NCBI GenBank assembly: GCA_030428615.1
Contig: JAUIDN010000001.1
Coordinates: 248,001-312,000, forward strand
Direction of reading: 5' to 3'
Source: Alphaproteobacteria bacterium
GTDB lineage: Bacteria > Pseudomonadota > Alphaproteobacteria > Sphingomonadales > Emcibacteraceae
DNA: 64,000 bases
The position numbers and the translations under genes were made by a program. The notes under the pieces are model-generated. The model worked only from the letters and a program-made list of their open reading frames with translations. It did not search any database and was not told the DNA's origin. Below, piece after piece: positions 24,997 to 31,239 of the stretch. Positions within the stretch are counted from its first letter, which is position 1; each line of letters begins with the position of its first letter.

Positions 24997-26493
24997 ATGA
25001 CGGATCATATAAATTCCTCGAATTTTACCCCCTCTCCTCTTACTACGAATCAATTTAATGATGACAAATTCCACGACGAATGTGGCGTTTTCGGCGTGTT
25101 CGATACACCAGAAGCGTCAACGCATACGGTACTTGGTCTTCATTCACTCCAACATCGTGGTCAGGAAGCGGCCGGCATTGTCAGTCATAGCGAAGGAGGC
25201 TTTTTTGCCCATAAATCCCTGGGGCATGTCGCCGACAACTTTAATACAAAACCGGTTATAGAATCACTGCCGGGAACAAGCGCGATAGGGCATGTGCGCT
25301 ATTCCACATCGGGTGGCGCCGGACTTCGTAACGTTCAACCATTATTCGCCGATTTGGCCAGTGGCGGGTTTGCTGTTGCCCACAATGGCAATATCACCAA
25401 CGCATTGACATTGAAAAAAAATCTTGTCAATAAGGGCGCAATTTTCCAGTCCACATCCGATTCCGAGGTCGTAATTCATTTAATAGCGACCAGTACATAT
25501 CCAAACCTGCTCGACAAATTTATTGACGCTATGAGACGGATTGAAGGTGCGTTTGCCTTTGTCGCTCTTTCAAAAGATTGTCTGATTGGTGCGCGCGACC
25601 CATTGGGTGTTCGCCCGCTGGTAATCGGTAAACTGCCCAATGAAGCATATCTTTTTGCTTCTGAAACCTGTGCTCTTGATATTATTGGTGCTGAATATAT
25701 TCGTGATGTCGAGCCCGGCGAAGTGGTCAGTGTCACCAAAAAAGGCCTTACAAGCGTTAAACCGTTCCCGGTATCAAATCCACGTCCCTGCATTTTTGAA
25801 CATGTCTATTTTTCCAGGCCCGACAGCCTGACAAATGGAACCAGTATTTATAAAGTGCGTAAGAACATCGGTAAGGAACTGGCAAAGGAATGTAAGCTCA
25901 ATGCTGATCTTGTAGTCCCGGTGCCCGATAGCGGTGTGCCCGCCGCCATTGGATACGCTCAGGAAGCGGGCATACCTTTTGAGCTGGGTATCATCAGAAA
26001 CCATTACGTCGGACGTACATTTATTGAACCATCAGATACGATCCGCCATCTTGGCGTTAAATTAAAACACAATGCCAACCGCGGTGAACTTGACGGTAAA
26101 ATTGTCGTGCTGGTCGACGATAGCATTGTACGCGGTACAACATCTGTAAAAATTGTTGATATGGTCCGTCAGGCCGGCGCCAAAGAAGTACACATGTATA
26201 TCGCAAGTCCACCTACAACAGACCCTTGCTTTTACGGTGTAGATACACCCAATAAGGATCAATTACTTGCGTCTCAAATGTCAGTGGAAGACATGGCTGC
26301 GCATATCGGTGCAGACAGCCTTAAATTTATATCGATTGACGGACTATACCGCGCTGTCGGTGAAGATGGGCGTAATGACATCCTTCCGCAATATTGTGAT
26401 GCCTGTTTCAGCGGCGAATATCCGACATCACTTACGGACAATAATGCATCGGACGATGACAAACAATTTTCACTACTGACGGATAGCCAATAA
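24997..26493 (+). CDS. purF: Amidophosphoribosyltransferase
   Basis: First committed step of purine synthesis: PRPP plus glutamine gives phosphoribosylamine. The 498 residues carry a propeptide of about 28 residues before the glutaminase nucleophile Cys29 (FHDECGVFGVFD), as in the B. subtilis-type enzyme. The PRPP loop is KIVVLVDDSIVRGTTS. Cysteines at PRPCIFEHVYFSRPDS, TTDPCFYGVDT and YCDACFSGEYP match the four ligands of the oxygen-sensitive [4Fe-4S] cluster of that type. It lies 69 bp after cvpA and shares a base with the following SDR gene. Confidence 0.96.
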   Translation: MTDHINSSNFTPSPLTTNQFNDDKFHDECGVFGVFDTPEASTHTVLGLHSLQHRGQEAAGIVSHSEGGFFAHKSLGHVADNFNTKPVIESLPGTSAIGHVRYSTSGGAGLRNVQPLFADLASGGFAVAHNGNITNALTLKKNLVNKGAIFQSTSDSEVVIHLIATSTYPNLLDKFIDAMRRIEGAFAFVALSKDCLIGARDPLGVRPLVIGKLPNEAYLFASETCALDIIGAEYIRDVEPGEVVSVTKKGLTSVKPFPVSNPRPCIFEHVYFSRPDSLTNGTSIYKVRKNIGKELAKECKLNADLVVPVPDSGVPAAIGYAQEAGIPFELGIIRNHYVGRTFIEPSDTIRHLGVKLKHNANRGELDGKIVVLVDDSIVRGTTSVKIVDMVRQAGAKEVHMYIASPPTTDPCFYGVDTPNKDQLLASQMSVEDMAAHIGADSLKFISIDGLYRAVGEDGRNDILPQYCDACFSGEYPTSLTDNNASDDDKQFSLLTDSQ

Positions 26494-27230
26494 TGATGTT
26501 CGAAGACTACATCGCCGTTGTTACCGGCGCATCGCGCGGTATCGGTTATGCAACCGCAAAAGCACTTGCCAAAGAGGGTGCGCATATTATTGCGATTGCG
26601 CGAACTGTCGGCTCGTTGGAAGCCCTTGATGATGATATCAAATCGTTCGGCGGTGAAACAACATTGGTACCGCTGGACATTACGGATTTTGACGCGCTTG
26701 ACCGATTGGGAGGCGTTATCGCCGACAAATACGGCAAGCTTGATATACTTGTCGGCAATGCGGCAACACTTGGTGATATAACACCAATTAGCCATTTAAA
26801 GCCAAAAGTATGGCAGCAACTGATGGATATCAATGTGACTGCAAATTATCGGTTAATCCGATCACTTGATCCGCTGCTTCGCGCTGCTGATCATGGACGT
26901 GCTGTTTTTATTGGCTCTTCACAGGTAGCCAGAAATCCGCGTGCCTTCTGGGGCGGCTATGCAACAAGCAAAGCAGCACTTGAATGCCTGGTAAAAACCT
27001 ATGCGACTGAAGTGGAACAATCCAACCTTCGGGTCAATATCTTAAATCCCGGTGCCATCAGGACCGCCATGCGCGCGCGGGCAATGCCTGGAGAAAACCC
27101 GGACACATTGGACACGCCACAAGATCTCATGCCTTTGATGATAAAGCTTTGCTCACCGGAATTTAATGATAACGGCAAGGTAGCCGATTATCGCATGTTT
27201 AAAAAAAATCCCGGTAATTTCTTTTTTTAG
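26493..27230 (+). CDS. Short-chain dehydrogenase/reductase coupled to purF
   Basis: Classical SDR of 245 residues with TGASRGIGYATA (about 11-22), the GNAATLGD variant of the NNAG motif, a Ser in FIGSSQVARNP, and the YATSK Tyr/Lys pair. The C-terminus (MLMP-like LMPLMIKLCSPEFNDNGKVAD) fits the group found next to purF in many alphaproteobacteria. Its ATG overlaps the purF stop (TAATG), so it is translated from the same mRNA, although no role in purine synthesis is known for it. A second ATG follows immediately. Confidence 0.88.
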   Translation: MMFEDYIAVVTGASRGIGYATAKALAKEGAHIIAIARTVGSLEALDDDIKSFGGETTLVPLDITDFDALDRLGGVIADKYGKLDILVGNAATLGDITPISHLKPKVWQQLMDINVTANYRLIRSLDPLLRAADHGRAVFIGSSQVARNPRAFWGGYATSKAALECLVKTYATEVEQSNLRVNILNPGAIRTAMRARAMPGENPDTLDTPQDLMPLMIKLCSPEFNDNGKVADYRMFKKNPGNFFF

Positions 27231-27234
27231 AACC

Positions 27235-27615
27235 TTATCCGATTTCACCGGTAAAATTAAAAGCTGCAAATTTATTTCCGTCAGGATCACGAAAATAACC
27301 GATATAGAAATTTGGTGTTCTTTCCCCTGGCGCCCCTTCGTCGCTGCCGCCATTTTCAAGCGCGCATTTGTAAATTTCGTCCACCTGTTCCGGTGACATT
27401 GCATTGAACGCGGTCATCACCCCATTTCCAACCGTTGCCTCGTTACCATCATGGGGGAGACACACCGAAAATGACGGCTGGTCTGGCGTAATATTCCACA
27501 CCACGAATGTATCTTCATCCATCATTCTTTTCGCCCCGACAATGCCAAGCACCTTATCAAAAAAAACGCCGGCCCTTTTTATATCTTTGGTGCCAACCAT
27601 AGTGTACCCAATCAT
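27235..27615 (-). CDS. VOC-family (glyoxalase-like) protein, copy A
   Basis: Small beta-alpha-beta-beta-beta protein (126 residues) of the vicinal oxygen chelate superfamily. It shares IGYTMVG-KDIKRA, FFDKVLGIVGAKR, LPHDGNEATVGNG and IGYFRDPDGNKFAAF with the two genes upstream. The usual metal ligands look absent: no His in the first strand, and Ala where DPDGNxxE normally has Glu. It is therefore probably not a glyoxalase-type metalloenzyme. It is last in the leftward TPR-bamB-der-VOC unit and ends 4 bp from the convergent SDR stop. Confidence 0.85.
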   Translation of the reverse strand: MIGYTMVGTKDIKRAGVFFDKVLGIVGAKRMMDEDTFVVWNITPDQPSFSVCLPHDGNEATVGNGVMTAFNAMSPEQVDEIYKCALENGGSDEGAPGERTPNFYIGYFRDPDGNKFAAFNFTGEIG

Positions 27616-27636
27616 CTTCCCTCTCCTATTTGTCAG

Positions 27637-28023
27637 TTATAAATGTTCATCACTGTCATAGTGATACGCTGCCAGTTTGTTTCCGTCAAGATCACGAAAA
27701 TAGCCGATATAATATCCACCATCGCGCATTCCCGGTGCTCCTTCGTCTGTTGCGCCGTTTTCCATCGCACAATCATAGACTTTATGCACTTCCGCCTCAT
27801 TGGCAACGGGGAATGCGATCATTGACCCATTTCCGACTGTGGCTTCATCACCATCATATGGAATACAAATTGAAAATGACGGTTTATCAGCGGCATCGTT
27901 CCAAAGAACGAATTTGTCGTAATTCATTTTTCTCTTGGCGCCCATAATACCGAGCACCTTGTCATAAAATGCCGCTGATTTTTTTATGTCCTTAACACCA
28001 ACCATGGTGTATCCGATCATCAT
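27637..28023 (-). CDS. VOC-family (glyoxalase-like) protein, copy B
   Basis: Second of three tandem paralogues (128 residues). It keeps IGYTMVGVKDIKKS, FYDKVLGIMGAKR, YDGDEATVGNG and IGYFRDLDGNKLAAY, and ends in an acidic/His tail (YDSDEHL). The canonical metal-binding His and Glu positions are again occupied by other residues. Two ATGs lie in tandem at the start (MMIGY). The gap to copy C is only 9 bp, so it is probably translated by reinitiation. It is as similar to copy A as to copy C by eye. Confidence 0.85.
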   Translation of the reverse strand: MMIGYTMVGVKDIKKSAAFYDKVLGIMGAKRKMNYDKFVLWNDAADKPSFSICIPYDGDEATVGNGSMIAFPVANEAEVHKVYDCAMENGATDEGAPGMRDGGYYIGYFRDLDGNKLAAYHYDSDEHL

Positions 28024-28032
28024 CGCCTTTTG

Positions 28033-28404
28033 TTATCCCACAAGGTGAAATAGTGAAAATTTATTACCATCCGGATCACGGAAATAGGCCATATAATAAG
28101 TGTCCCCACGAAAGCCCGGTTCCCCTTCGCTTGTTCCGCCGTTGGCCAGAGCGCATTCGTACATTTCATGGACCTGTTCTTTGGTATCCGCCCCAAAGGA
28201 AATCATCGTCCCGTTACCTACGGTTGCTTCATTGCCATCATGCGGTAAACAGACAGCGAAGAATGGTTTATCCTTATCCGTTGCCCACATGATGGAAGTA
28301 TCCCCTTCCATCGCCCTTTGAGCGCCAACAATTCCAAGTACTTTATCAAAAAATTCCCCTGATCTTTTCAGGTCTTTTGACCCTACCATGGCATAGCTTA
28401 TCAT
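28033..28404 (-). CDS. VOC-family (glyoxalase-like) protein, copy C
   Basis: First of the three tandem paralogues in transcription order (123 residues), starting 30 bp after the der stop. It shares FFDKVLGIVGAQR, LPHDGNEATVGNG and AYFRDPDGNKFSLF. It differs from the others at the N-terminus (ISYAMVGSKDLKRS) and at the dimer-facing strand (SIMWATDKDKPFF). As in its paralogues, the residues that would bind metal in glyoxalase I are missing. The substrate is unknown. Confidence 0.85.
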   Translation of the reverse strand: MISYAMVGSKDLKRSGEFFDKVLGIVGAQRAMEGDTSIMWATDKDKPFFAVCLPHDGNEATVGNGTMISFGADTKEQVHEMYECALANGGTSEGEPGFRGDTYYMAYFRDPDGNKFSLFHLVG

Positions 28405-29883: not shown

Positions 29884-31239
29884 TCAACGAAGGGCGATTA
29901 TTTCGCCATCCTCAACCATGAAATAGAGTGTCCCATCTGATATAATAGGTGCCATTGACGAATTATCCGGCAAATCCATACCCCCCGTTACCTGCCCGGT
30001 ATAAGGCGATAATGTAACCGCGTACCCATGAGACGACGTAACAATAACACGGTCACTTGCGACAACCGGCCCGTTCCAGTGCACTGGCTGCTTACGCACA
30101 TCAGGATCGGCAAACCGTTCAAGCTGCGTGATCCAGCGAACACGACCATCACGTCGGGTCAAACAAACCACTTCCGAATCCGGTGTTACAACATATATGA
30201 ATTCACCCGCGATCCACGGCATATCCTCCGAACCAATATTTTGTTCCCATGCGCGCACACCACTTCTGATATTTATAGCAACCATTCTTCCGCTTTGGCT
30301 TATCAAATAAACGTTGCCATCATAAACAACCGGATGCCCGTCAATATCACGCAAGCTTGCCATAGCCGTTAACTGCCCCTGCCGGCTAAGGGTATCTGTC
30401 CAGAGAACCCGGCCATTTTCAACGCGCATCGCATAAACTTCACCGGATGAATAGGCAACGATAACGGTATTGCCGATAACTGCTGGACTGGCGTTTCCCG
30501 CGAGACCGGCAGTTTCCACTATTCCAACCTCATCCCAGATAATCTCACCCGTTTCAGCATCCATCGCAAATATATGATTATCATGACTTACACCAAAAAC
30601 TCGGCCATCGGCATAAGTCGGCGACCCTCGCATCGGCACACCAATATCCTCGAGCCAAAGTTCACTTCCGTCTTCCAGACTGAGTGCCCCGAAATGTCCA
30701 TAACCGGTTACAAAATAAAGCGCATTATCACCAACCGTTACACCGCCGCCGTATCCAAGCTTGTCGGTCTCACCGTCCATACGATATCTTTTATCCCACA
30801 AACGTTTGCCCGTTTGTGCGTCAAGGGCGGTAATCTTTGAACTGGCATCCATCGCATAGAGAACGCCGTCCTTAACAACCGGTTCTGAAACAAGCGCTTT
30901 TCTTCCGGAAGAACCTTCGCCAATGTCACTGCCCCAAATGCGCTCCGGATTATCCGCAATTTCAAGATGGTGGTGAATATGCTGCATGTTGCCGCCCGGC
31001 TGAGCCCAGTTTTCGTTCCTGTAGGGTTTCGGCAACGTGACCTGCAGACTGCTTACCTGCGGATCAACCTTAAGCTCCTGCTCAAATGTCAAAACTGAAA
31101 AACGCTCACCCTCAATCGTATTCCGGTTGTCGGCGCCGCCGCCGCCACACGATGAAAGCACAAGAACAATCGATAATAAACCAGCCATTTTCATCGCTGG
31201 TCTGAAAATTTCTTCCGGCATTTGAATTTCACTTGCCAT
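29884..31239 (-). CDS. bamB: Outer membrane assembly lipoprotein BamB
   Basis: Eight-bladed beta-propeller lipoprotein of the BAM complex that inserts outer-membrane beta-barrels. A lipobox LVLSSC places the lipidated Cys at residue 31 from ATG 31239, or at residue 16 from the in-frame ATG 31194, which gives a more normal signal length. The longer start has the better ribosome site (AGGT). The rest shows repeated PQQ-like strands (ALDAQTGKRLWDKRY, AMDAETGEIIWDEVG, RVENGRVLWTD, TRRDGRVRWITQ). It lies between the TPR protein gene and der, both common partners. Confidence 0.92.
   Translation of the reverse strand: MASEIQMPEEIFRPAMKMAGLLSIVLVLSSCGGGGADNRNTIEGERFSVLTFEQELKVDPQVSSLQVTLPKPYRNENWAQPGGNMQHIHHHLEIADNPERIWGSDIGEGSSGRKALVSEPVVKDGVLYAMDASSKITALDAQTGKRLWDKRYRMDGETDKLGYGGGVTVGDNALYFVTGYGHFGALSLEDGSELWLEDIGVPMRGSPTYADGRVFGVSHDNHIFAMDAETGEIIWDEVGIVETAGLAGNASPAVIGNTVIVAYSSGEVYAMRVENGRVLWTDTLSRQGQLTAMASLRDIDGHPVVYDGNVYLISQSGRMVAINIRSGVRAWEQNIGSEDMPWIAGEFIYVVTPDSEVVCLTRRDGRVRWITQLERFADPDVRKQPVHWNGPVVASDRVIVTSSHGYAVTLSPYTGQVTGGMDLPDNSSMAPIISDGTLYFMVEDGEIIALR

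Follow-up and report, generated by a model that had tools for sequence, protein, structure and literature searches.

The window, a stretch of 64,000 nucleotides from an alphaproteobacterial contig, contains three adjacent genes for small VOC proteins, which we call copies A, B and C by their order behind the GTPase gene der. The three are arranged head to tail on the minus strand directly behind der, and their coordinates and those of their neighbours, all taken from the list of open reading frames, are as follows:

26493..27230, plus strand: SDR-like gene, 4 bp from copy C and convergent with it
27235..27615, minus strand: VOC copy C (position 3), 126 aa
27637..28023, minus strand: VOC copy B (position 2), 128 aa
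28033..28404, minus strand: VOC copy A (position 1, adjoins der), 123 aa
28435..29850, minus strand: der (GTPase), upstream neighbour of A
29884..31239, minus strand: bamB-like gene, upstream of der

The name der for the GTPase gene is presumptive and follows a preliminary description of this DNA; the bamB-like label is likewise assumed from that description, and the SDR-like gene and a further neighbour of the array, purF, bear presumptive names. The array may form an operon, for which the short intergenic distances in these coordinates (30 bp between der and A, 9 bp between A and B, 21 bp between B and C) are the one line of evidence; consensus scans counted 14 promoter-like sites (shuffles, 10.5 +/- 3.2) and 8 terminator-like sites (shuffles, 5.7 +/- 2.6), numbers that speak neither for nor against it. 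The preliminary description had drawn attention to three neighbouring genes of 123-128 residues with shared sequence blocks (DKVLGI-GA-R, DG-EATVGNG and YFRD-DGNK), and these blocks recur in A, B and C, which are 53-63% identical to each other.

All three proteins score above the PF00903 cut-off of 20.6 bits (A, 34.9; B, 35.5; C, 34.8), and none reaches an NCBIfam cut-off. PF00903 matches 15 stretches in this genome, the trio among them, and a joint profile of the trio returns A, B and C as its sole matches there. The trio falls outside the glyoxalase I families, with best scores of 26.6 bits against 165 (NF050074) and 17 against 120 (TIGR00068), and outside FosA/B/X, where FosG alone is among the matches listed, for copy B at 14.7 bits against 240, and the ligands are missing. 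AlphaFold2 models of copy A (pLDDT 93.1, pTM 0.88), built of two beta-alpha-beta-beta-beta halves, and of copy B (pLDDT 90.1, pTM 0.85) confidently predict a VOC fold. Foldseek placed 4QB5 first and 4Z04 second for both models, with TM scores against 4QB5 of 0.88 (A) and 0.86 (B). Superposition of the A model gave a VIA Z score of 20.1 on 4QB5 (rmsd 1.7 over 119 residues, 38% identity), 18.1 on 4Z04 (rmsd 2.1 over 119, 29% identity) and 14.1 on Escherichia coli GloA (1F9Z); the preliminary description had proposed this comparison with glyoxalase I, and it returned VOC folds for A and B. 4QB5, a glyoxalase/bleomycin resistance protein of Albidiferax ferrireducens, has the same full-length fold as the trio and shares its Pro54/Asn64-Gly65/Arg99/Tyr104/Tyr107/Arg109/Asn114/Lys115 signature; it is without three of the four metal ligands but, unlike the trio, retains the first-strand His. 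4Z04, a probable lactoylglutathione lyase of Brucella melitensis, resembles the trio in its fold, Arg99 and Tyr104, and differs in retaining His67 and Glu117 and in having Phe107 and Asn115.

VOC metalloenzymes require metal ligands that include the first-strand His and the Glu after a DPDGN motif. Both had been described from the window as replaced in all three proteins, and the alignment agrees, with Tyr4 at the former position and Ser (A) or Ala (B and C) at position 117 after D-DGN. The second-half His position is Met67, and the strand-4 Glu position is Cys52 in the larger of two alignments and Ala/Ser50 in the smaller, neither of them a usual VOC ligand. In both alignments, His, Glu and Gln are absent from all four glyoxalase I ligand positions of A, B and C, so that by alignment the trio lacks the ligands in strands 1, 4, 5 and 8 that characterize a VOC metalloenzyme. 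GloA has its fold in common with the trio, in which all four GloA ligands are missing; the GloA-like protein of the same genome (L001), which like the trio has a Gly-Asn-Gly motif before strand 5, retains H/E/H/E in the alignment that gives Tyr4, Cys52, Met67 and Ser/Ala117 for the trio. A complete metal site made from other residues, which the preliminary description had allowed for, is rejected: no His or Cys is invariant or nearly invariant across an alignment of 112 sequences. Cys52 and Cys84 are common to A, B and C.

That the loss of metal is peculiar to the trio is rejected as well, since close relatives are also without the ligands. Among 113 distinct relatives, drawn from 146 domain-covering sequences after removal of shorter and partial hits, 112 have Met at position 67. 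At position 117 there is Ala in 81, Asn in 18, Cys in 7, Ser in 6 and Gly in 1, but never Glu. The 80 named loci had been retrieved by two peptide patterns, one including Tyr4, so the Tyr4 count among them is partly a product of construction; positions 52, 67 and 117 lie outside both patterns. The pattern at positions 67 and 117 suggests that the trio inherited the loss, and since the loss is common to a broad, mostly single-copy clade of relatives, it is, as far as alignments tell, a trait of the subfamily and not a result of the triplication, marking a wide clade with 4QB5 as its nearest solved structure. The earlier proposal of a triplicated non-metal VOC protein holds as regards the missing ligands; the loss itself predates the trio.

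The subfamily is delimited by a 4QB5-type signature (Asn64/Arg99/Tyr104/Tyr107/Lys115) that was defined in this analysis and is not a published family; A, B and C all qualify, and the family profile matches 4QB5 with an E value of 4.4e-32. At the level of the order, 182 of 196 sampled genomes match the trio's profile, usually with one to five matches; outside the genus, the family contributes 19 genomes, of which, at the threshold used, 15 contain a single match, one contains two and three contain none. Local duplication recurs within the subfamily, as adjacent gene pairs in G004 (L027 900-1875) and G220 (L182 945-1872) and as a two-domain fusion in G222 (L171 1069-1950). Clustering of 499 proteins encoded around the named loci L049-L119 does not support a shared gene neighbourhood in single-copy relatives: of the largest 25 clusters, those near the VOC gene came from related taxa, among the taxa listed; one 16-locus cluster spans Pseudomonas, Ensifer and Advenella, about 2.6 kb from the VOC gene and on mixed strands. 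To our knowledge, few metal-free VOC proteins have a known function, and papers on the subfamily or on 4QB5/4Z04 were absent from the matches listed, in which coverage of subscription journals is thin. The available portions of PMC11610580 and PMC4215206 hold nothing on the subfamily.

The wider relatives comprise 47 stretches from 14 plasmid regions and 30 class-level loci; the latter are the best matches to a metal-keeping cousin, which as a query matched 50 of 115 genomes, and metal-keeping sequences are over-represented among them. His67 occurs together with Glu or Gln117 in 27 of the 47. Position 107 is Phe in all 23 sequences with Glu117 and Tyr in all 24 without it, counts that are not independent because the sequences share ancestry; possibly, the metal ligand was exchanged for a tyrosine hydroxyl. 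In a tree built by a quick method with the ligand columns removed (87 of 122 rows, with 36 of 84 inner branches left open), metal-keeping sequences, 4QB5 together with the frm-type plasmid cousins described below, and the trio's clade are largely separate, with four changes between metal-like and metal-less states. Loss of metal rather than gain is the expected direction but is not proven, because the root depends on a single long outgroup branch with three metal-less rows nearby.

Within the genus, 9 of 13 genomes have the complete trio behind der, one of them (G020) a single contig, whereas the other genera of the family mostly have a single copy. The gene der adjoins the VOC gene or genes in all 13 (tblastn), a bamB-like gene stands beside der in the loci long enough to show it, and the co-directional position behind bamB and der, already remarked on from the window, is conserved across the genus loci. 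An SDR-like gene follows downstream of the array in most loci, the exceptions being G020, G021 and G022. Copy A is present in 10 of the 13 genomes, copy B in every one and copy C in 9; because the contig of G023 stops right after B, copy C cannot be judged there. In G024 and G030 the der locus holds B as its sole copy, and in G022 it holds A and B but lacks C. From the absence of A in three genomes and of C in at least three it follows that both are dispensable in places. The named relatives of the array come from MAGs labelled Emcibacteraceae (an NCBI family of Emcibacterales), Kordiimonadaceae or Alphaproteobacteria.

Relics of lost copies were looked for in G024 and G030. The sole sign of one is a weak 18-residue match to a VOC C-terminus (E 0.03) directly behind der in G024 (L123 4851-5043), a trace that would suit a former copy A, since lost, better than a locus with one copy from the start. 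In G028 and G029 (L013, L016, 1087-1494), a 408-bp gap between C and the SDR gene apparently contains a small gene, which we take to be thioesterase-like. Beyond the array, G022 (L126 4974-8765) and G020 (L122 64-3919) carry a block of genes that presumably encode look-alikes of a histone-deacetylase-like amidohydrolase, a class III aminotransferase and a beta-keto acid cleavage enzyme. G020 also has two more array-type copies, dispersed and long-branched, away from der (L120 4024-4446, L121 3908-4360).

On a 73-row tree, the three positions fall into distinct clades (bootstrap/SH-aLRT supports 95/91 for A, 99/99 for B and 99/88 for C), the B clade also including one dispersed, long-branched copy from G020. 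One clade per position argues for a single ancestral triplication followed by divergence, with the copies largely kept, and the local triplication put forward in the preliminary description is borne out in this form; by the tree, it took place once, in the ancestor of the genus. Selection on the copies is purifying, with dN/dS of about 0.02-0.12 in four comparisons. Between G020 and G021 the ratio is about 0.04 for A, 0.07 for B and, at a dS of 2.3, 0.02 for C, and between G024 and G030 it is 0.12 for B; between the window and G028 and G029 dS is saturated and yields no usable ratio. The copies diverge at 15 of the 60 positions that are conserved inside each clade. In a test run post hoc, with the position list already known, 9 of these 15 lie within two residues of the old ligand sites, compared with 18 of all 60 (hypergeometric p 0.006), and 6 lie within one residue, compared with 10 of all 60 (p 0.011), a clustering that fits a possible specialisation of the copies.

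We propose that a single triplication behind der, in the ancestor of the genus, produced the trio from one gene of the metal-less VOC subfamily, and that A, B and C have since diverged, with most copies retained. VOC proteins are usually dimeric, and A, B and C would be small cytoplasmic VOC proteins that presumably form dimers. The former metal cup, which holds Tyr4, Cys52, Met67 and Tyr107, would act as a metal-free ligand pocket, with a subfamily-wide floor (Asn64, Arg99, Tyr104, Tyr107, Arg109 and Lys115) gripping a shared and probably anionic part of the ligand, and with residues specific to A, B or C around the old ligand positions setting the preference of each copy; all these pocket contacts are read from strand register alone. 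Of the functional readings, a metal-free pocket for small molecules, whose floor is common to the copies and whose walls differ among them, has the most support. The trio are most likely metal-free ligand-binding or detoxification proteins, and their role may be to bind or detoxify a reactive or toxic small molecule. Their site behind der would be a matter of joint transcription rather than of a process in common with Der or BamB. Taken whole, from a single triplication behind der through divergence and a metal-free ligand pocket to a binding or detoxifying role, this is an explanation towards which we lean, if only slightly.

Arg99, Lys115 and Tyr107 are each invariant in the 113 distinct relatives, and the wider relatives keep Arg99 in 47 of 47 stretches and Lys115 in 40 of 47. 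This degree of conservation would suit metal-independent enzymes, in which Lys115 and Tyr107 perform acid-base chemistry on a thiol adduct or a carbonyl and the three copies serve three substrates. Invariance by itself, however, fits binding as well as catalysis, and we are not aware of a set of catalytic residues in comparable VOC enzymes that work without metal, nor was one among the matches listed; we consider catalysis an unlikely, though appreciable, alternative to a metal-free binding pocket.

It is also conceivable, but improbable in our estimation, that in this metal-free branch the glyoxalase I pocket became a glutathione-adduct site, with Arg99, Lys115 and Tyr107 replacing the metal, which would detoxify formaldehyde or electrophiles, the trio representing three electrophile preferences. 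The entry title of 4Z04 names a complex with glutathione. Glutathione synthetase scores above cut-off in 13 of 13 genus genomes, suggesting that the genus makes glutathione, and class III ADH does so in 10 of 13. In human glyoxalase I, a strand-1 arginine binds glutathione; this residue has no counterpart in the trio, which has Gly8 there.

Further evidence comes from plasmids. Among 20 plasmid regions selected for variety, seven (L133, L134, L135, L136, L149, L185 and L186) have an frm-type cousin of the trio in the interval from frmA to fghA; in two of these regions a DUF3422 gene separates the VOC gene from fghA. They represent several plasmid types (IncX3, IncHI2, IncN and plasmids of Acinetobacter, Comamonas, Yersinia ruckeri and Providencia), and some bear NDM or IMP in their names. 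The linkage is missing in the other 13 regions, and frm linkage of the whole subfamily is rejected, all seven linked regions being of the frm type. Of 72,556 plasmid records, 587 have a best match that is at least 60% identical to the IncX3 protein. An Aureimonas copy with 80% identity to that protein is without frm linkage. The plasmid frm-operon proteins are about 36-39% identical to copy B and have the same signature as the trio; their metal site is reduced to the first-strand His, and together with 4QB5 they cluster apart from the trio. They are tied to formaldehyde genes, whereas the trio is not: it does not lie between frmA and fghA, the array stands in neither a glutathione nor a formaldehyde operon, and the frmA-fghA pair of its own genome, adjacent to each other, is on another contig than the array. 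No trio-type VOC gene stands within about 1.5 kb of frmA-fghA in three genus genomes, and tblastn found neither frmA nor fghA in the other family loci covered, most of which have flanks of just 1.5 to 4 kb. Relatives that are closer to the trio than frm-type proteins are show mixed gene neighbourhoods. A paper describing the role of the VOC gene between frmA and fghA was absent from the matches listed. PMC13029678, in the portion available, describes plasmid frmA and frmB interspersed with other genes, and the terms 'VOC' and 'vicinal' do not occur in its main text. By analogy, glutathione or one of its adducts is a weakly supported candidate for the ligand of the trio, and the plasmid frm-type cousins offer a testable lead toward glutathione chemistry.

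Bleomycin- and mitomycin-resistance VOC proteins bind their drug in the dimer cleft, and A, B and C could be drug-sequestering resistance proteins of this kind or of the DnrV kind, each directed at one toxic natural product. The structure list includes the phenazine-resistance protein EhpR (Z 13.0 for the A model), the mitomycin-binding proteins 1KLL and 2A4W (Z about 12.5) and a tiancimycin-binding protein (Z 11.3), but these drug binders match far more weakly than 4QB5 and at the level of the fold only. Metal-free VOC proteins that bind drugs do exist: the available part of PMC12979805 describes DnrV as a VOC protein binding doxorubicin and terms the mitomycin resistance determinant a non-metalloprotein VOC. 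Like the trio, these two have a VOC fold without a metal role, and by analogy they may represent the closest known metal-free way of working; they resemble the trio in fold only, however, and belong to a secondary-metabolite context, while the genes around the array (purF, the SDR-like gene, der and the bamB-like gene) are of neither biosynthetic nor efflux type. Copy B is moreover found in 13 of 13 genus genomes, unlike typical acquired resistance, and we assign drug sequestration a low probability.

The constant A-B-C order with short gaps in 9 of 13 genomes would accord with an obligate hetero-oligomer, in which the three proteins build a joint particle or pair into mixed dimers. Copy B, however, stands without A and C, or without C, in the three genomes named above and therefore does not need both partners at the der locus, and such an assembly seems to us similarly doubtful. 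The head-to-tail layout could also be that of assembly duplicates or recent dosage copies lacking separate roles, a possibility considered in the preliminary description, but the identities of 43-64% between positions against within-position means of 66-78% across the genus, the separate clades, the recurrence in 9 of 13 genomes and the intact trio in the single-contig genome G020 reject it and leave it a negligible probability.

Altogether, in the trio an uncharacterised VOC subfamily has undergone an ordinary expansion at the level of a lineage, inside a known superfamily, and this is no new kind of system. The subfamily is common in the order, and a conserved trio with separable copies makes a handy system for the question of its ligand.
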